Virus record (IMG/VR): IMGVR_UViG_3300025132_000249
Coordinates: 1-26,197 of that record
Strand: one strand, 5' to 3'
DNA: 26,197 nucleotides
Origin: a virus
A model generated the notes under the pieces. It did no database searches, was not told the origin of the DNA, and saw only the letters and a list, made by a program, of their open reading frames with translations. Shown piece by piece: positions 2,512 through 10,531 of this stretch (its first letter is position 1; every line of letters begins with the position of its first letter). Made by a program: the position numbers and the translations under genes.

Positions 2512-2795
2512 TAACAACAATAATAATATTAGCGGTAGCATTAACAATATCAGTATTTGTTAATATAAACCAATTAAGAAAACAAGAAGATCAATCAGAT
2601 TATATTGAAGATTTAGAAACATCGAATCTAAATTATTACAATTATTTTGATGGATTGAAAACAAAAATTAATCAAGCCAACTCTGAAATAAGAAACGCAG
2701 ATAGACAAGGAGCATTTGAAGCATCAGACGAAGTAGGCACATCTTTTAAACTTATCAAAGAAGTTATGGATGACCTAAATCGTGGAGTTAACTAA
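2508..2795 (+). CDS. Small membrane-anchored protein, conserved-looking C-terminus
   Basis: This is a 95-aa protein. Residues 1-20 (MITTIIILAVALTISVFVNI) form a single N-terminal transmembrane segment or uncleaved signal anchor. A charged, tyrosine-containing helix follows, and the C-terminus reads DRQGAFEASDEVGTSFKLIK, a type of ending I associate with small proteins next to sigma genes in T4-like marine phages. No function is known to me. The gene overlaps the HD-domain gene by 4 bases and the sigma gene by 1 base (TAATG), so the three are almost certainly co-translated. It could tether a partner to the membrane. A gp33-like co-activator role is possible by position but not supported by sequence. 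Confidence 0.75.
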   Translation: MITTIIILAVALTISVFVNINQLRKQEDQSDYIEDLETSNLNYYNYFDGLKTKINQANSEIRNADRQGAFEASDEVGTSFKLIKEVMDDLNRGVN

Positions 2796-3580
2796 TGAGC
2801 GCAGTAGACAATTTTTATAAATGGTTAGAGGCAGATAAGATTCGAATAGAAGAAGAATCTAAACTTCCAAAGAAAAAGAAACGAGGAAGAAAGCCTACCA
2901 AAAAACAATATTTTACATATATAACAGATGAGGCAATAGTTGCATATAACAATGAAGGTGACGAACTAAAACGTAATAAAGTTTACAGAGAACATATTCA
3001 TTATGCGTTTGATAAGCTAGCTGAAAATATTATTCATACATTTAAATTTTATTATTTTGATGTACCTTATATAGATGTTAAATGCGAAACAGTTGCATTC
3101 TTAAATGAAAAAATTCATAAATATCAAAAAGGTAAAGGTAAAGCATTTTCATATTTTAGTATTGTAGCAAAAAATTATCTTATTATTGCAAATAATGCAA
3201 ATTATGCAAAAATGAAAGCAAGAACAGATTTAACTGTAATAGATGATAGTAGAGATTTAAATGCAGAATCATCTTATTCTGATTACCAAGAAGGCCTTAA
3301 AGATTTTACAAATCAGTTTGTAGATTATTATACAACAAATTTAAGTAATATTTTTTCAAATAAACGAGATATAATTGTAGCTGATACATTATTAGAATTA
3401 TTTCGAATTAGAGATAATATAGAAAACTTTAATAAAAAAGCTCTTTACATTCTTATACGAGAAAGAACAGGTCTTAAAACACAAAATATCACCAAAGTAG
3501 TTAATATAATGAAAAAACATTATGCTTCTATGTATGAAAATTATTCACATAGAGGGTATATTGGCACCCATAAATCATAG
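2795..3580 (+). CDS. gp55: Late-transcription sigma factor, gp55-like
   Basis: This 261-aa protein matches the T4 gp55 type of late sigma factor. The diagnostic stretch is at residues 100-130, with KCETVAFLNEKIHKY followed by GKAFSYFSIVAKNYLI, equivalent to sigma region 2 (core RNA polymerase binding and -10 recognition). It would redirect host RNA polymerase to late promoters for the structural genes downstream. It is longer than T4 gp55 (185 aa). The extra sequence includes a basic N-terminal patch with an AT-hook-like RGRKP (residues 30-34) and a C-terminal helical region (205-245) that might form a helix-turn-helix. No obvious sliding-clamp-binding tail is seen at its C-terminus (HRGYIGTHKS). 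Translation starts at TAATG, with GGAG at 2784-2787, 7 bases upstream. Confidence 0.88.
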   Translation: MSAVDNFYKWLEADKIRIEEESKLPKKKKRGRKPTKKQYFTYITDEAIVAYNNEGDELKRNKVYREHIHYAFDKLAENIIHTFKFYYFDVPYIDVKCETVAFLNEKIHKYQKGKGKAFSYFSIVAKNYLIIANNANYAKMKARTDLTVIDDSRDLNAESSYSDYQEGLKDFTNQFVDYYTTNLSNIFSNKRDIIVADTLLELFRIRDNIENFNKKALYILIRERTGLKTQNITKVVNIMKKHYASMYENYSHRGYIGTHKS

Positions 3581-3611: not shown

Positions 3612-3989
3612 ATGCATGACGAGTTTGAGTTATTCAAAGGAACTACATTTTCAGATTTAATGAAAGATATCTATCATAATTCTAAAAAGAAAGATAGACA
3701 AATAAATACATTAATTCAAGAACTACAGCCATTAATTAAAAATATTAGTGATGCAACAATAATAGTTCCATTAATTAAAGAATATCTAGATGTATCAGTT
3801 AAAAACGATGAAGCATTAGTTAAATTAGCAGCTGTTGTACAAAGACTAGTAGGATCTGCAACTGCAGCCGGCGGAGATGAATTTGGAATGTCAGATGAAG
3901 AAAAACAAAGACTATTACAAACAGCTCAAGAAGAACTAGATGCAATTCATAAACAATCAGAAGAAATTGATTTAGGAGAATCTAAATGA
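3612..3989 (+). CDS. Small helical protein of unknown function upstream of the hub gene
   Basis: This 125-aa, soluble, predicted all-helical protein has an acidic C-terminus and no cysteine. It begins MHDEFELFKGTTFSDLM. The middle (residues 40-80) alternates leucine, isoleucine and valine in a pattern fit for helical packing, then comes a Gly/Ala-rich break (VGSATAAGGDEFG) and a charged C-terminal helix. I do not recognise the family. AAAGGG at 3598-3603 is a well-spaced ribosome-binding site. The gene overlaps the hub gene by 4 bases (ATGA), so the two products are probably made together. A baseplate-hub assembly or chaperone role is a reasonable guess from context only. Confidence 0.75.
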   Translation: MHDEFELFKGTTFSDLMKDIYHNSKKKDRQINTLIQELQPLIKNISDATIIVPLIKEYLDVSVKNDEALVKLAAVVQRLVGSATAAGGDEFGMSDEEKQRLLQTAQEELDAIHKQSEEIDLGESK

Positions 3990-6229
3990 GTCAAGCAGGC
4001 TTAACATGGGCATATGGAGAAGTTGTTGATATACAACATGCTTTTAAGAATACAACTGCATCTGAAGGAAAAAAGAAACAAGGTGGAGCTGGTGATGAAG
4101 CTATGGACAATGTCCGTGGTGAAGTAACAATACAATTACAAGGCAACCAGGCCGGTGCAGGTTCAGGACCAGGTAAACAAGTAACAGCATATCCAGCCGA
4201 CATAAATACTACTCGTATACCGTTAGTCGGAGAGCATGTTGTATGTTTCCAAGGACCAGGTCCTGAAATGGGCGCAGCATCGCCTGATGCAAGTACTGGT
4301 AAGAAAGCGTCTGGAATGCAATATGATTTAGATTGGTATTATTTAGCACCAGTATCGTTAGGAGGAAGTATTCATACAAATTTGAATCCTGCGTCAAATT
4401 CAAAAAGCGTAAAAAGTCCAACCAGAGTATTACAAGATGGTAATAAGACTAATAAGGTAGATGCTTATGCAAATGCTGAAGCAGGTAATCCTACTACTTC
4501 AAATAAAAAGCAAGACGCAAAAGAAGGAGTTCCAGCTGAAGAACCACCTACTACAGATCAATTATCAAGTAAGATGATTGCAAAATTCCAAAAATTAGAA
4601 GAAGCTGTTATTCAATATAAACAAGCTATGGATGCTGGAGATACACGAAAAACAGAAGAAGGATTAAAAGATAGAGAAAATAAAATTGAAGAGTATAAAG
4701 AAAGATTAGTAAGGGAAGGATTTACTGGAGAGTTTAGGGAATCAGAAGAAAAATTTGGATATAATACTATAACAGGATATTTAGAATTATCAACATTAGC
4801 AGCTGATAATTATGATTTTAATAATCTACCAGTTGGAAAAGGAGGAACATATCAATCAGTTTTAGAACTACATGAATATGATAGAGGATATGAAAACAAT
4901 AGTTTTTATACAAAAGAAGAATCAACTAAATTTGTAGAACAATTCAAAGAACCTACAGACAGGAAACCAGAGGTTGATCAAAACTATTCGCCTAATCCTA
5001 AAGATTCAAATCCTGCATCAGGACCTAATCCTAATACGTCAGATAATAAAACTAATCCTCCTCCAGGTAATGATTTTGTAGAACAAACAGAATTAAATAA
5101 TTTACAACCATATGAAGGAGATATTTTAATTCAAGGTCGATTTGGAAATTCTATAAGATTTGGATCTACAGTTAATCCAAAAGAACCAGAAAGATATATT
5201 AAAATGCCATCATGGTCAGAAGGTCAAGCAGGTCCAGGAGCACCAATTAATATATTAAGAGCTGGACAAGCGCCATCTCAAAAAAATTCTAGAAATGAAT
5301 ATATCATTGAAGATATTAACGGAGATAAAGCATCAATCTATATGTGTTCAGGACAAAAAATTGCAGTTTCATTAGCACATAATCAATTTGATGCAATAGA
5401 ACAACCATTTAGTAATTCATCAGATGAAGCTCATTATAGTTCAAATGGATATGCAATTCCTTCTAAAGATTGTAATGGTATTAGTGCACCAATATTTCCT
5501 GCAGAACCATTAGAACCAATTCCAGATGATGTAGAAGATTTAGAATTATTAGATGGTGAATATGAATATTTTGATACTGAAAGAGGATCACCGACTAGAG
5601 GAAGAGTTGTTGGTACAGATAGAATACGATTAATACAAGGACAGCCTGTATTAGAAAAAATGTGCGGCAAAGTGCTTACATTATTTAAAGCAGCCAAAGC
5701 AGATGGAGTAGAAATAAAATTAAATAGTAGCTTCAGAGGTCTTTGGCAAATCAATCATCCAAGAACAGGACAGAAATTAGCTTCAGGTCAAGTAAATTGT
5801 AGATATGCAAATGCAATCAATAAAAGTTGGAAAACAGAAGCTAATAAAAAAGATAGATCAAGTCCGTTATGGACAGCAAGTTCAACTAAATTTTCATGTT
5901 ATGTAGCAATACCAGGTTATAGTAGACACCAAAGTGGTACTGCAATTGATTTAGATTATAAACGATATCTGGTAAATAAAGATGGTAGTCGATCAAAAAC
6001 TAGTACTACTAATACAAAAGGAGTTTATGCATGGTTGGTAGCTAATTCATACAAATATGGATTTGTAAGAACAGTAACAACAGAAGAATGGCATTTTGAA
6101 TACAATACTGCGCTTGCAAGTAAAGGACCGTTTTCAAAATTAAGAGCAGGTAAATCAAGTAACTCATGGCACGGATTAGATGCAGCATTTGAACAAGGAA
6201 GATTAGGACCTTGGCCAGGACAAAGTTAA
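3986..6229 (+). CDS. gp5: Baseplate hub/cell-puncturing protein, gp5-like, with C-terminal M15 peptidase domain
   Basis: This is a 747-aa protein. Residues 1-125 resemble the gp5-type OB-fold that caps the tail tube (GLTWAYGEVVDIQ, RIPLVGEHVVCF, WYYLAPVS). Residues 130-370 are low-complexity and helical linkers. Residues 373-465 form a second beta-rich segment (YEGDILIQGRFGNSIRFGS). Residues 540-710 are a D-Ala-D-Ala carboxypeptidase/L-Ala-D-Glu endopeptidase (M15, LAS) domain: SRHQSGTAIDLD supplies zinc ligands His648 and Asp655, and EEWH supplies the third ligand His703 with Glu700 as likely catalytic base. T4 gp5 carries a lysozyme instead, so this phage probably breaches peptidoglycan by cutting the peptide rather than the glycan. 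AGGAG at 3973-3977 is 8 bases before the ATG. An endolysin role is less likely given the fusion to baseplate domains. Confidence 0.85.
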   Translation: MSQAGLTWAYGEVVDIQHAFKNTTASEGKKKQGGAGDEAMDNVRGEVTIQLQGNQAGAGSGPGKQVTAYPADINTTRIPLVGEHVVCFQGPGPEMGAASPDASTGKKASGMQYDLDWYYLAPVSLGGSIHTNLNPASNSKSVKSPTRVLQDGNKTNKVDAYANAEAGNPTTSNKKQDAKEGVPAEEPPTTDQLSSKMIAKFQKLEEAVIQYKQAMDAGDTRKTEEGLKDRENKIEEYKERLVREGFTGEFRESEEKFGYNTITGYLELSTLAADNYDFNNLPVGKGGTYQSVLELHEYDRGYENNSFYTKEESTKFVEQFKEPTDRKPEVDQNYSPNPKDSNPASGPNPNTSDNKTNPPPGNDFVEQTELNNLQPYEGDILIQGRFGNSIRFGSTVNPKEPERYIKMPSWSEGQAGPGAPINILRAGQAPSQKNSRNEYIIEDINGDKASIYMCSGQKIAVSLAHNQFDAIEQPFSNSSDEAHYSSNGYAIPSKDCNGISAPIFPAEPLEPIPDDVEDLELLDGEYEYFDTERGSPTRGRVVGTDRIRLIQGQPVLEKMCGKVLTLFKAAKADGVEIKLNSSFRGLWQINHPRTGQKLASGQVNCRYANAINKSWKTEANKKDRSSPLWTASSTKFSCYVAIPGYSRHQSGTAIDLDYKRYLVNKDGSRSKTSTTNTKGVYAWLVANSYKYGFVRTVTTEEWHFEYNTALASKGPFSKLRAGKSSNSWHGLDAAFEQGRLGPWPGQS

Positions 6230-6244
6230 ATGGAAAAATAAATT

Positions 6245-7507
6245 ATGGCAGAAAGTAAATCAAATAGTGGACATGTAGTAGATAGAACCGAAACTATATA
6301 CGAAGGTGAAATATGGGGAATGGAAAATGTATACATTTTTCCAGGAGACATGAAACGAGATGTACGTGGAATATTATGGGTAATACCACCTACATCAACT
6401 GCGGCAATAGAATACGCAGATGATCCTGGATTTGTAGGACAACATTATGCATACGACTTGATCAAGCAGTCTATTCAAGAAGGACATATACCACAAGATG
6501 AATGGGTTATAGTTGTAGCAGCAAATCATAGATGGAGTTTAGAACAATGTTCATCTAATGCAAAAGATGTATTTAGAGAGCAGGGATTGAGTTATGCTAA
6601 ACATATTGATTTATGTGGATGTTGTACAACACCAGATGGAAAACAATATTTAAATGCTGTATATGCCATTGGAGAAGGAGCTAATGCAATAGACTTTGGA
6701 GATCCGGAACTTACTAATGTAATAATGTCAGATCCAATATTATATCCTCCAATGAAAATTCCAGAAGATATAGCATCAAATATTACGTTGGCTATGAATC
6801 CAAATAATTATGATCCAACAACTCCTTCTGGAGAAGCAACCTTAAATGCATTTGAAGAACTTAAAGAAATATTACCTCCAGATAATATTGTAGAATCTAA
6901 TCAAGATGCATTTAATACCGCTGCAATTGCTGCAGGTATATTAGCGTTAGTAAATTTTGCAGCCGATTTAATAGATATGTTTGGACCTCAAGGAGGAGAT
7001 TTAGAAGATACGCCTGGACCATTAGATGAAGATTTAGAAGAAATAGGAGTAATGGATGACCCGGCCGGAACACCAGAATCAAAACAAAAAGATCAAGGTA
7101 CACCGACGCCTTCTCCTGTAGCTGCTTGTGCAGATTATCAAAGCCCTCAAGTTATTATAACATCAGATAGATTAGTATTTAATGCACGACAAGATGCAAT
7201 ACTAATGTCTGCAGGAACATATATAGGAATATCAGCAACAGAAGCTGTAGGAATAGATGTTGGAGGTTCAGGTCATTTTACAGTAAATGCACCAGAAATT
7301 CATTTAGGTCTTGATTCTGTAGAACCGTTAATTCTTGGTCAACAAATGCATGATTGGTGTGTAGAATTAATTGATAAAATTCAAATGTTAACATATACAA
7401 ATTCTGGAGGTCCTACAGGTCCTGCAATTAATGCCGCAATATTGGATACATTAAAGACAGATTTCGTTTGGGATTATATAAAAAGCGATCAGAATTATAC
7501 TTTATAA
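6245..7507 (+). CDS. Hub/spike companion protein with gp5-like beta-helix C-terminus and alpha/beta-like N-domain
   Basis: This 420-aa protein directly follows the hub gene. Residues 301-352 (ITSDRLVFNARQDAILMS, then IGISATEAVGIDVGGSGHFTVNAPEIHLG) have the short repeating beta-strand pattern of gp5/VgrG-type spike beta-helices, followed by a helical C-terminus (QQMHDWCVELIDKIQ). Residues 28-165 look like an alternating alpha/beta domain: strands GILWVIP, WVIVVAANH, HIDLCGCC and AVYAIGEG separated by helices. This vaguely recalls an alpha/beta hydrolase, but no intact GxSxG nucleophile elbow is present (LCGCC sits near where one might be expected). An acidic Pro-rich linker (residues 245-290) joins the parts. 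It probably belongs to the central spike or hub. The ribosome-binding site is weak (GGA at 6232-6234). Confidence 0.75.
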   Translation: MAESKSNSGHVVDRTETIYEGEIWGMENVYIFPGDMKRDVRGILWVIPPTSTAAIEYADDPGFVGQHYAYDLIKQSIQEGHIPQDEWVIVVAANHRWSLEQCSSNAKDVFREQGLSYAKHIDLCGCCTTPDGKQYLNAVYAIGEGANAIDFGDPELTNVIMSDPILYPPMKIPEDIASNITLAMNPNNYDPTTPSGEATLNAFEELKEILPPDNIVESNQDAFNTAAIAAGILALVNFAADLIDMFGPQGGDLEDTPGPLDEDLEEIGVMDDPAGTPESKQKDQGTPTPSPVAACADYQSPQVIITSDRLVFNARQDAILMSAGTYIGISATEAVGIDVGGSGHFTVNAPEIHLGLDSVEPLILGQQMHDWCVELIDKIQMLTYTNSGGPTGPAINAAILDTLKTDFVWDYIKSDQNYTL

Positions 7508-7563: not shown

Positions 7564-8037
7564 ATGGATACAAAAAGTTTTGTAAAAATTTTACGAAAAG
7601 TTATTAGAGAAGAAGTTGGTAAAGCTGTTAAACAAGCTATCAACGAACAAAAGATTAACACTAATCAAGTTATTGAACACGGTATGAATCTGTCAGAAAT
7701 TACAGAAAATCCTATGCCAAGGAGACCTATCGCAAGAAAAAAGAAATTTGCAAAAAATTCAATGTTAAATGATTTATTAAATGAAACAGCACAAACAGGA
7801 GATTTTGCTTCAATGATGCAAGGACCACCAGTTAGTATGATGGAAGATTATCCACAAATGGGTCCTACAAGAACATCATCAATGGTAAGGCCTAATCAGG
7901 TAATGACAGGTATTGATGGCGAAACTGTTCAAGCAAAAACACCAGAACTTCAAGCTGTTCAAAATGCATTAATGAAAGATTACAGTGGTGTCATTAAAGC
8001 AATAGATAAGAAAAATGGTAAAATGGGAACTAGATAG
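7564..8037 (+). CDS. Small unknown protein upstream of gp25
   Basis: This 157-aa protein has a basic amphipathic N-terminal helix (residues 4-28: SFVKILRKVIREEVGKAVKQ). A polar, Met/Pro-rich middle (50-115) looks disordered, with a short helix KFAKNSMLNDLLNET, and the C-terminal helix is ALMKDYSGVIKAIDKKNGK. There is no catalytic motif and I do not recognise a named family. Its stop overlaps the GTG start of gp25 by one base, so it is probably translated with the baseplate wedge genes. It could be a small baseplate or tail-assembly protein such as a scaffold or chaperone, but that rests on position alone. The start is ATG 7564, chosen over the in-frame TTG at 7552. Confidence 0.75.
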   Translation: MDTKSFVKILRKVIREEVGKAVKQAINEQKINTNQVIEHGMNLSEITENPMPRRPIARKKKFAKNSMLNDLLNETAQTGDFASMMQGPPVSMMEDYPQMGPTRTSSMVRPNQVMTGIDGETVQAKTPELQAVQNALMKDYSGVIKAIDKKNGKMGTR

Positions 8038-8639
8038 TGGCAGATAAATACTTCAAAAGCAAAAAAGAATCAGCTTACTTAAAAGGTGGCGGACGTCCAA
8101 TATATCGTTATAATGTTAATGATATAGAAGATGATAAAGCTATTGGAGTAATGCTTCCTTTCAACGGTGCATCTGCTGGTGTAACATCAAAGCCAAATTT
8201 AGCATACGGAGAAGTATCAGGCTCGGATGCATCAAATGAATTAGCTGAAAAATTAGCTGGTAAGTTTCCATTATCATTTACAACAGAACAACAAGCGTTG
8301 ACAAATCTTAAAAACCTATTATTAACATATCCAGGTGAAAGATATATGCAACCAAAGTTTGGAGTAAGAATAAAAGATAGAGTATTTGAACCAAATACGC
8401 CAGAACTAGTAATTTCATTAAATAAAGAAATACAAGATGCGATAAAATTTTGGTTGCCTTATATTATCATTAAAAATATTAATATAGATAATCGAGATGC
8501 AGATGATAATTTTACAAATTATTTATTTATTAAACTTACGTTTAGAGTAACTGAGCAAGGAGCAAATCAAGAAATAACATTAGTTAGTAATGGAGAAAGT
8601 ACTACAACAGTTGAACCAGGAGCAATGGCATCATATTAA
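8037..8639 (+). CDS. gp25: Baseplate wedge protein, gp25-like
   Basis: This 200-aa protein contains the gp25/lysozyme-like wedge signature at residues 87-109: ALTNLKNLLLTYPGERYMQ followed by PKFG. The ERYMQPKFG element is the conserved core of phage and T6SS TssE/gp25 proteins. It binds gp6 and the sheath at the baseplate periphery of the tail tube. It is longer than T4 gp25 (132 aa) because of an N-terminal extension of about 60 residues (KGGGRPIYRYNVNDI onward). Translation begins at GTG 8037, whose G is the last base of the preceding TAG stop. gp6 follows after 11 bases, the same order as in T4. Confident by motif and synteny. Confidence 0.9.
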   Translation: MADKYFKSKKESAYLKGGGRPIYRYNVNDIEDDKAIGVMLPFNGASAGVTSKPNLAYGEVSGSDASNELAEKLAGKFPLSFTTEQQALTNLKNLLLTYPGERYMQPKFGVRIKDRVFEPNTPELVISLNKEIQDAIKFWLPYIIIKNINIDNRDADDNFTNYLFIKLTFRVTEQGANQEITLVSNGESTTTVEPGAMASY

Positions 8640-8650
8640 GGGAATAATTT

Positions 8651-10531
8651 ATGGCAGATTTAGTTAAAAAGGATATAAAATATTTAAGTAGAGACTTTGG
8701 TGAGTTTAGACAAAATTTAGTTAATTTTGCAAAAAACTATTTTCCAAATACCTATAATGATTTTAATGAATCATCACCTGGAATGATGTTTATGGAAATG
8801 TCAGCATATATTGGTGATGTATTATCATATTATTCAGATAGTAATCTTAAAGAATCATTATTAGGATATGCAGAAGAAAGAGCAAATATAAATTCTATTG
8901 CAGCTGCATTAGGATATAAAACAAAAAATATGGTAGCATCATTAGTAGAATTAGATGTATATCAAACAGTACCAGCAACCGGAACAGGAGTTAATGCAAA
9001 ACCAGATTGGAGATATGCATTAAATATAAATGCAGGAATGATAGCAAAGTCAAATACAGGGGTTGAATTTAGATCAGTAGATCCAGTAGATTTTGGAGCA
9101 ACAGGTTCTGCAACCAATCCTAGAACAGTTACTGTATATCAAATTGATGAAGCAACTGGTACACCAACATACTTTTTGATTAAGAAAAAAGTTGCAGCTG
9201 TATCTGGTGCTGTAACACAAGAAGAATTTAGATTCCAAGAACCTAAAATATATGATAAAATAGTTCTTAAAGATACAGATATAATTGAAGTAATTGATAT
9301 TATGGATGAACAAGGCAATAAATGGTACGAAGTTCCATATTTAGCACAAGATACTATACAAGAAGGTATAAGAAATACTCCAAATATAGATCCTGAATTA
9401 TCAAGTTATAATTCAAGCGTACCTTATATCTTAAAATTAAGACGTACAGCTAAACGATTTGTATCAAGATTTAGAGCAAACAAACAATTAGAGATTCAAT
9501 TTGGAGCAGGTATATCTGAGGAACATGATAGAGATCTAATACCTAATCCAGAAAACGTAGGTTTAGGGATTAAAGGATTAAATAGAGAAGTTGATATATC
9601 AATAGATCCTGCAAACTTTTTATATTCAAGTACATATGGACAAGCACCTTCGCAGACCACCTTAACCGTTCGTTATGCAAGAGGTAAAGGATTACAGGAT
9701 AATGTACCAGCAAATTCAATACAAGAAGTTTCATTTGCATCATATGCAAACTCAATACAAAATTTAGATACAGCAATTCTGAATCAAGCAAAAGGATCTG
9801 TAGCTGTTAATAATCCATTACCTTCTAGAGGAGGAGCATCTGCAGAGTCAGTTGAAACGGTAAGGCAAAAAGCTTTAAGTGTTTTTGCTGCACAAAATAG
9901 AGCAGTTACAAAAGAAGATTATATTTTAAGATGTTATACAATGCCACCTAAATTTGGTCATGTAGCTAAAGCATATATTATCCAAGATGAACAAGTAGAT
10001 TCAACAGATCCAGAAGCTAAAATTCCAAATCCATTGGCAATGAATATTTATGCAATGGGATATAATTCAACAAGACAGATAGTACCATTGAATCCTGCTA
10101 TTAAACAAAATCTAAAAACATATATATCACAATTTAGATTGATGACAGATGCAATTAATATTAAAAACTGTTTTATAGTTAATTTAGGAGTTGAGTTTGA
10201 AATTATACCAAAACCAACATATAACGGGTCAGAAGTTGTATTAAGGTGTGTTGAAAAACTTAAAGAGTTGTTACATATTGATAATATGCAGATTAATTCA
10301 CCAATTGTGATTTCTGATATTTATACAAAATTAGATAATGTAGATGGAGTTCAAACTGTATCCGATGTAGAAATAAAAAATCTATATGATATAAACTCTG
10401 GATATTCAGGAAATGTATATGATGTCAAAGCTGCAACATTAAATAACATAATTTATCCATCATTAGATCCATGTATATTTGAAATTAGATATCCTAATTC
10501 AGATATTAAAGGTAGAATTGTAGGAATATAA
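8651..10531 (+). CDS. gp6: Baseplate wedge protein, gp6-like (baseplate J family)
   Basis: This 626-aa protein is close in length to T4 gp6 (660 aa). The N-terminus (DIKYLSRDFGEFRQNLVNFA, then SSPGMMFMEMSAYIGDVLSYYSD) is characteristic of the gp6/baseplate-J wedge family. Residues 395-430 (GGASAESVETVRQKALSVFAAQNRAVTKEDY) match the family's second landmark, the segment before the C-terminal domains. gp6 dimers form the ring that joins the wedges around the tail tube and undergoes the star transition. AAGGG at 8638-8642, partly formed by the gp25 stop codon, is 8 bases before the ATG. The gene ends in TAAGGG, which likewise builds the ribosome-binding site of the next gene. Confidence 0.92.
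   Translation: MADLVKKDIKYLSRDFGEFRQNLVNFAKNYFPNTYNDFNESSPGMMFMEMSAYIGDVLSYYSDSNLKESLLGYAEERANINSIAAALGYKTKNMVASLVELDVYQTVPATGTGVNAKPDWRYALNINAGMIAKSNTGVEFRSVDPVDFGATGSATNPRTVTVYQIDEATGTPTYFLIKKKVAAVSGAVTQEEFRFQEPKIYDKIVLKDTDIIEVIDIMDEQGNKWYEVPYLAQDTIQEGIRNTPNIDPELSSYNSSVPYILKLRRTAKRFVSRFRANKQLEIQFGAGISEEHDRDLIPNPENVGLGIKGLNREVDISIDPANFLYSSTYGQAPSQTTLTVRYARGKGLQDNVPANSIQEVSFASYANSIQNLDTAILNQAKGSVAVNNPLPSRGGASAESVETVRQKALSVFAAQNRAVTKEDYILRCYTMPPKFGHVAKAYIIQDEQVDSTDPEAKIPNPLAMNIYAMGYNSTRQIVPLNPAIKQNLKTYISQFRLMTDAINIKNCFIVNLGVEFEIIPKPTYNGSEVVLRCVEKLKELLHIDNMQINSPIVISDIYTKLDNVDGVQTVSDVEIKNLYDINSGYSGNVYDVKAATLNNIIYPSLDPCIFEIRYPNSDIKGRIVGI

Follow-up and report, generated by a model that had tools for sequence, protein, structure and literature searches.

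Among tail-associated entry enzymes, the gp5 protein of phage T4 is the textbook case, and knowledge of its cleavage comes mainly from T4. We compare it here with two adjacent genes, A and B, of a 26-kb virus record (IMGVR_UViG_3300025132_000249, positions 1 to 26,197; this whole stretch is called the window). Judged by sequence homology, A and B together appear to be one gp5-like spike chain divided between two genes in a marine phage.

In T4, gp5 is cleaved at Ser351-Ala352, in the linker between the lysozyme and the needle; the needle is responsible for trimerization and stays bound in the virion (PMC3004832, PMC7650644). With the needle present, the lysozyme activity is 10% (PMC3004832), and the needle is thought to dissociate on meeting peptidoglycan (PMC3004832, PMC7650644). 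The window resembles T4 gp5 in its OB-like N-terminus, wall enzyme and terminal needle (PMC3004832, PMC7650644, PMC4576200), in the division between the enzyme and the needle, and in the gp25-like and gp6-like genes nearby. T4 gp5 is one cleaved chain with a lysozyme, whereas the window has two genes and a peptidase, with an amidase or DUF2272 domain in relatives. The window also has an extra spike segment before the enzyme and an alpha/beta-hydrolase-fold domain on the gene of the tip.

Other systems share part of these features. The OB-fold protein of the Rak2-like phage CBB is of the gp5 type but departs from T4 in the class and the position of its enzyme, with a lysozyme and a possible M23 peptidase domain; the accessible text describes no divided needle gene (PMC5259590). 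Cyanophage A-1(L) has a separate OB-fold central spike and an assayed peptidase activity at the baseplate, but its enzymes reside on the hub protein and not at a cut in the spike (PMC10966104). VgrG of the type VI secretion system is a spike carrying enzyme domains, and in the part of the source available no division of the chain is described (PMC11925235). In Synechococcus phage S-CREM2, the adjacent gp210 (baseplate central spike) and gp211 (central spike) are both present in virions (PMC10665884). This phage differs in that gp211 has the Gp5_OB family and no enzyme family, and none of the spike and enzyme hidden Markov models (HMMs) described below matched its gp210, gp211 or gp213. As far as these three proteins are concerned, S-CREM2 seems to represent a different arrangement. 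The central spike annotation is also given there to a third gene, the short gp215 (OR473000, 169280-169624).

Flavobacterium phage immuto and Microcystis phage Mel-JY01 show detectable sequence homology to the window, with both spike segments in one chain and gp25 and gp6 neighbors. They differ in having an undivided spike, of 378 and 503 amino acids (aa) respectively, which is annotated as hypothetical and lacks the searched enzymes. In the literature searched, which left subscription journals mostly outside, the accessible texts described no two-gene spike with an enzyme at the cut.

A probable single spike chain in two genes

Both genes lie on the plus strand, and the two open reading frames (ORFs) are found where the original prediction placed them. 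A (3986..6229) encodes 747 aa and was characterized by Pfam and by profile alignment to an undivided spike; B (6245..7507) encodes 420 aa. In tblastn searches against named phages, A and B each matched one ORF of Mel-JY01, in adjacent parts. The same was seen with hhalign and a relative, L041, whose spike is an undivided ORF of 407 aa. Residues 358-471 of A align to L041 residues 160-266 (probability 99.9, E 2e-33), and residues 292-420 of B to residues 270-407 of the same chain (probability 99.5, E 2.7e-22). The two matched parts are adjacent and do not overlap, with three residues between them. The proposal that the puncturing device is split over two genes is thus borne out by the alignment of both segments to adjacent parts of a single chain.

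The segments are named here the first spike segment (A residues 370-475, 5093..5410) and the tip (B residues 292-420, 7118..7504). The first spike segment precedes the peptidase domain of A and had been missed previously. HMMs were cut from the family alignments and run over the ORFs of 105 loci. In the window-type loci, A (OB-like region, first spike segment, M15 peptidase) is followed by B (hydrolase-fold domain, tip) wherever both genes are present, an order found in 32 loci, overlapping fetches that make up 7 clusters. Elsewhere, 68 ORFs carry the first spike segment and the tip in one chain, 3-13 residues apart, without the M15 or hydrolase-fold domain. The HMMs of both segments matched 40/40 undivided spike ORFs and 0/2000 shuffled copies.

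A full gp5 homologue elsewhere in the genome was also considered. A 103-kb relative carries an A that is 95% identical, and its B was read as two pieces at a stretch boundary. On this contig, which is possibly incomplete, the spike HMMs matched only the A and B genes. The window lacks the single chain that is cleaved on maturation in T4: there are two ORFs with two in-frame stops between them.

The enzyme at the cut

The enzyme of A is assigned to the M15 peptidases. Pfam VanY (PF02557) covers residues 560-707 (5663..6106) with E 2.8e-12 and 47 bits, compared with a curated cut-off of 25. It is the sole Pfam family above cut-off in A, and no T4-type lysozyme domain was found between the OB-like region and the needle. 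Against sequences of the PDB, A matched the D-alanyl-D-alanine carboxypeptidases 5hnm, 6a6a and 5zhf (E 6.7e-5 to 8.8e-5). The motif H-x6-D ... E-x-W-H, which we take to be the metal-ligand and catalytic motif with these residues presumably binding zinc, comprises H648, D655, E701 and H703. H648, D655 and H703 are intact in the window, and the motif is intact in 18/18 VanY-type clusters. The M15 peptidase claimed for the 747-aa protein is therefore confirmed at the level of family, and the family assignment also favors the suggested cutting of peptides rather than glycans. The M15 domain of A is a probable cell-wall-cutting enzyme located where the needle is divided. PHROG matches over the M15 domains were to tape-measure and endolysin entries, and the remaining ones were weak unknowns; no PHROG spike family was found in the spikes scanned.

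Further divided spikes were fetched by scanning with three kinds of query: the L036 first half, free tips, and the L118 first half. This gave 193 loci, of which 16 were dropped as unreadable with a part missing, and the 177 kept form 81 clusters at 95% identity. The loci include repeated fetches of the same contigs, and the clusters are the fairer unit. In the 70 undivided loci (40 clusters), none of five enzyme HMMs matched the spike ORF or any other part of the stretch fetched. Every one of the 107 divided loci (41 clusters) has a searched enzyme at the cut, fused in 89 and labelled separate in 18, and the enzyme comes after the first spike segment in 89/89 fused cases.

The enzyme HMMs were built partly from the same loci, and Pfam served as the independent check. 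It was run on 45 proteins, which represent 40 of the 41 divided clusters (cluster L156 has no complete gene and was left out), and found VanY in 18, Peptidase_M15_3 in 13, Amidase_2 in 6 and DUF2272 in 2. DUF2272 is an uncharacterized family that we presume to be a wall peptidase. Pfam here gives family counts and not names, and the 6 unmatched proteins were read as five first halves without a fused enzyme and the second gene of L178. Among 37 undivided spikes, a family was found in 0/37 at E up to 0.01. The slot is thus wider than the M15 peptidase of the original prediction, with four Pfam families occupying it. By these counts, the cut in the spike would be an enzyme slot.

The divided spikes other than the window type have a stand-alone tip gene of 150-164 aa where complete, and the enzyme either ends the first half or is a gene of its own between the halves. 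The L137 cluster includes one row, L138, in which the enzyme was read as a separate ORF; the near-copies are fused. In L178, tandem first-half genes of 620 and 678 aa (L178:2068-3930 and 3944-5980) are followed by a single tip gene. Their OB-like and first spike segments are very similar and their C-terminal parts differ, so that they might form a mixed trimer carrying two enzymes. L178 was labelled as having a separate amidase in spite of its tandem first halves, and the amidase was seen by our own HMM only, with no Pfam match.

It had been suggested that the peptidase stands in place of a lysozyme. This part of the claim was rejected: the 70 undivided relatives carry no searched enzyme and 37/37 undivided spikes have no Pfam family, so no lysozyme is seen to have been replaced.

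Some points tell against the slot. The absence in undivided spikes is an absence of the searched enzyme classes. In Mel-JY01, which has an undivided spike, the gene next to the spike (L001:13124-14155) is annotated as a putative chitinase, though Pfam found no family in it; undivided phages may thus keep an entry enzyme on a neighboring gene. The loci were found through spike motifs, and two scans took the best 80 of 130 and the best 80 of 260 relatives. The counts therefore describe what was fetched, with biased proportions, and are not natural frequencies. Named phages with a divided spike were sought by tblastn, the queries being one first half and two free tips, and only the undivided Mel-JY01, immuto and an uncultured phage matched.

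A possible OB fold and beta-helix

The original prediction assigned an OB-like domain to A and a beta-helix-like spike to the C-terminus of B. For the former (residues 1-140, 3986..4405), an HMM of the N-terminus of A matched 11/68 undivided ORFs and, by cluster, 5/40 compared with 1/2000 shuffles, and an N-terminal HMM from the L036-type clade matched 34/40 undivided clusters and 0/2000 shuffles. An AlphaFold model of L041 was made from 37 sequences. Its confidence (pLDDT, predicted local distance difference test) is 65.5 overall, 80-89 in most ten-residue blocks from residue 281, and 63-65 at 361-380. Residues of about 19-124 match OB-fold proteins with Z about 6. The best match of the model in the PDB is a phage P1 baseplate chain (E 4.2e-3), followed by a contractile injection system baseplate (E 0.058), and in BFVD 3 of the 11 top rows are named Gp5/Vgr OB-fold proteins (E 2.5e-4, 0.045 and 0.045). 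As predicted structures, these matches fit a spike, modestly.

Several results weigh on the other side. The matches of L041 are modest, with Z 7.1 and 6.5 Å over 174 residues, which the tool rates as frequent among models lacking a clear match, and T4 gp27-gp5 matches the L041 model only at E 3.2. Pfam at E up to 1 gave no Gp5_OB (PF06714) match in A, although the family is recovered with this library from gp211 of the T4-like cyanophage S-CREM2, with E 2.1e-8. A Gp5_OB search over 16 records gave no match and its control was silent as well, which makes it uninformative. The OB-like domain is thus seen as a fold in the model of a relative and lacks a family match in A itself.

In the AlphaFold model of B, the pLDDT is about 25 over residues 240-360 and 34-54 beyond, and the model contains no beta-helix, which taken literally would refute the original prediction on the terms set there. 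Pfam found no certain family on B, with DUF2345 appearing only at E 0.13, and phmmer of B against the PDB gave no match. The failed prediction is not decisive, because a chain modelled by itself is expected to fail when it belongs to an intertwined trimer. The homology of the tip to the C-terminal third of undivided spikes stands, and the beta-helix itself is not supported by the model of B.

Evolution of the divided spike

The gp6-like gene was used as the tree marker, in an unrooted tree of 69 clusters (35 undivided and 34 divided); 12 of the 81 clusters have no gp6 ORF over 450 aa and were left out. The divided and undivided states on the tree need two changes, and the starred branches force two. 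A single divided clade, as from one common origin, was rejected in the approximately unbiased (AU) test with p 0.009 and a log-likelihood 39 lower, a result to be read with the caveats that the group was named after the tree had been seen, that the tree is a quick one, and that L002, L111, L001, L080 and the stem of the window clade are long branches. Two origins of the spike division are likely. The tree being unrooted, the direction of change, gain or loss, cannot be told. In the larger divided lineage, one set of 12 rows contains VanY and DUF2272, and a second set, of 16, contains Peptidase_M15_3 and Amidase_2. Relatives differ in their enzyme class, which supports exchange at the slot wherever the root is placed.

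A proposed entry mechanism

We consider it probable that the central spike of this T4-like contractile tail is made as two separate parts, with A like gp5* and the tip of B like gp5C. A, with its OB-like N-terminal region, first spike segment and M15 peptidase, would work like gp5*, the matured N-terminal fragment of T4, and the tip of B like gp5C, the needle fragment. The two would assemble end to end as trimers. The tip would be held non-covalently under the spike segment of A, with the enzyme beside it, and would cover the peptidase until entry. Contraction of the sheath would drive the tip through the outer membrane, after which the tip would detach, and the peptidase could then cut stem peptides and let the tube reach the inner membrane. 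As A and B are made separately, a cleavage of the T4 type would not be needed. The cut might also act as an exchange site, accepting one wall enzyme or another while leaving the needle fold intact.

The gene boundary between the enzyme and the needle resembles the T4 cleavage site. By this analogy, as the original prediction also suggested, the post-assembly cleavage of T4 may be unnecessary in the window phage. One feature does not fit: in A the enzyme is preceded by a spike segment, and in T4 it is followed by the needle. The enzyme of A would therefore hang beside the joint and not between the OB-like region and the needle.

A more general proposal can be put forward only tentatively. Division at the base of the needle may be a repeated route to a spike-borne entry enzyme in contractile-tail phages, one that replaces the T4 cleavage and arose at least twice. 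It may form a socket exchanging unrelated wall enzymes, with the tip as a plug that keeps the enzyme inactive until the outer membrane is pierced.

Many phages thus seem to achieve through gene structure a division comparable to that of T4, and four enzyme families are found at this one place. Divided spikes make it testable whether an enzyme-bearing spike requires a separate needle, and their parts form a natural series in which restraint of the enzyme by the needle can be studied. A 2018 review stated that endopeptidase entry lysins occur almost exclusively in phages of Gram-positive bacteria (PMC6116005). In contrast, the divided spikes may mean that T4-like phages infecting Gram-negative hosts have entry enzymes that cut peptides. 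As for the host of the window phage, the named phages closest to it in gp6 are those of Microcystis and Flavobacterium.

The hydrolase-fold domain and alternative explanations

The hydrolase-fold domain of B (residues 8-240, 6266..6964), another feature missed before, was characterized by AlphaFold, Foldseek and an alignment of 8 sequences. Its pLDDT is 39-85 by ten-residue blocks from residue 11, with an ordered domain at about 10-240. The best Foldseek match has E 2.7e-5 and probability 1.00, and 895 of the 1000 chains ranked highest by Foldseek have a Z of 8 or more. The fold is that of an alpha/beta hydrolase (VIA, Z 13.3, 192 residues, 3.2 Å). Carbohydrate esterases and cutinases are among the closest folds, and C124, C126 and C127 are invariant in the 8 sequences, in the motif C124-G-C126-C127 (6614-6625). 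The domain could then be catalytically active, for instance as an esterase whose nucleophile is a cysteine, and strip the host surface ahead of the peptidase. This is unlikely: the alignment contains no invariant serine, and its sole invariant histidine, H67, lies outside the late position usual for the catalytic histidine of alpha/beta hydrolases. In a profile comparison with two S-formylglutathione hydrolases (E. coli FrmB/YeiG), the sites were unaligned (probability 0.1), so that a nucleophile could not be placed. In addition, the domain is absent from the stand-alone tips of other phages. Its probable role is docking or binding to the envelope, and not catalysis of the classical serine type. 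The C-G-C-C motif together with H67 may be a metal site, a disulfide or a cysteine nucleophile.

The same large domain, unrelated to the spike, is a reason to ask whether A and B are simply different tail proteins sharing spike-like segments, A being a hub with a peptidase and B a separate cap or fiber. The lack of a predicted beta-helix in the tip points the same way. We find this quite unlikely, in view of the match of the two segments to adjacent, non-overlapping parts of one chain, only three residues apart. In other phages, moreover, what precedes a stand-alone tip is a first half bearing an enzyme or a separate gene for the enzyme.

Some endolysins are M15 enzymes too, and the domain of A might serve host lysis or the processing of virion proteins, being merely carried on the hub. 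The 103-kb relative has a holin family, and no separate endolysin family was seen on it among the best 25 of 33 Pfam and 25 of 89 PHROG families. However, this contig may be incomplete, and ORFs below 120 aa or crossing the stretch ends fell outside the scan. In relatives the position is taken by an amidase, by DUF2272 or by a different M15 class, which is what one would expect for an entry enzyme, and a role of the M15 domain outside entry is very unlikely.

That A and B, which share a reading frame in the window, are partly one chain through stop-codon readthrough or a frameshift, the split being only apparent, is scarcely credible and was rejected on the two in-frame TAA stops at the junction (6227..6244; stops at 6227-6229 and 6239-6241, B start at 6245), and the distance from the A stop to the B start, counted to the first possible start codon, also varies, from 15 bases in the window to 13, 12, 4, 15 and 11 in L004, L006, L008, L009 and L011, with an overlap of 17 in L112.

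Neighboring genes

Downstream of the two-gene spike are a gp25-like baseplate wedge gene (8037..8639; PF04965, E 3.1e-14) and a gp6-like baseplate wedge gene (8651..10531; PHROG baseplate wedge subunit, E 4.8e-18), both on the plus strand. Their presence indicates that the neighborhood is a T4-like baseplate cluster. The gp6-like protein has 48% identity with Mel-JY01 and 42% with immuto, the nearest named phages in gp6. At 200 aa, the gp25-like protein of the window is longer than the roughly 135 aa of distant relatives, and its gp25 domain covers only 89-173; it thus has an N-terminal extension.

In five relatives, a gene of variable length, 267-866 aa, lies between the spike and the gene of about 115 aa that precedes gp25 (L038:8255-10147, L041:3864-5699, L059:8732-9688, L091:8747-11347 and L036:2373-3176). 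Four of these, that of L041 excluded, were scanned and gave weak family matches only. The window is without this gene.

The 103-kb relative (L105-L110) has Gp23 capsid, sheath and prohead protease families, and no phage lysozyme family was found among the best 25 of its 33 Pfam families. It also has UvdE, Hsp20, PhoH and RecA, and Laminin_G_3 in three proteins. A window-type first-half gene (L120:4203-5711) lies at the end of a contig binned to a Nitrosopelagicus metagenome-assembled genome, which is probably a mis-binned phage contig. Upstream of the spike, the window has a 261-aa gene (2795-3580) that may resemble the late sigma factor gp55 of T4.

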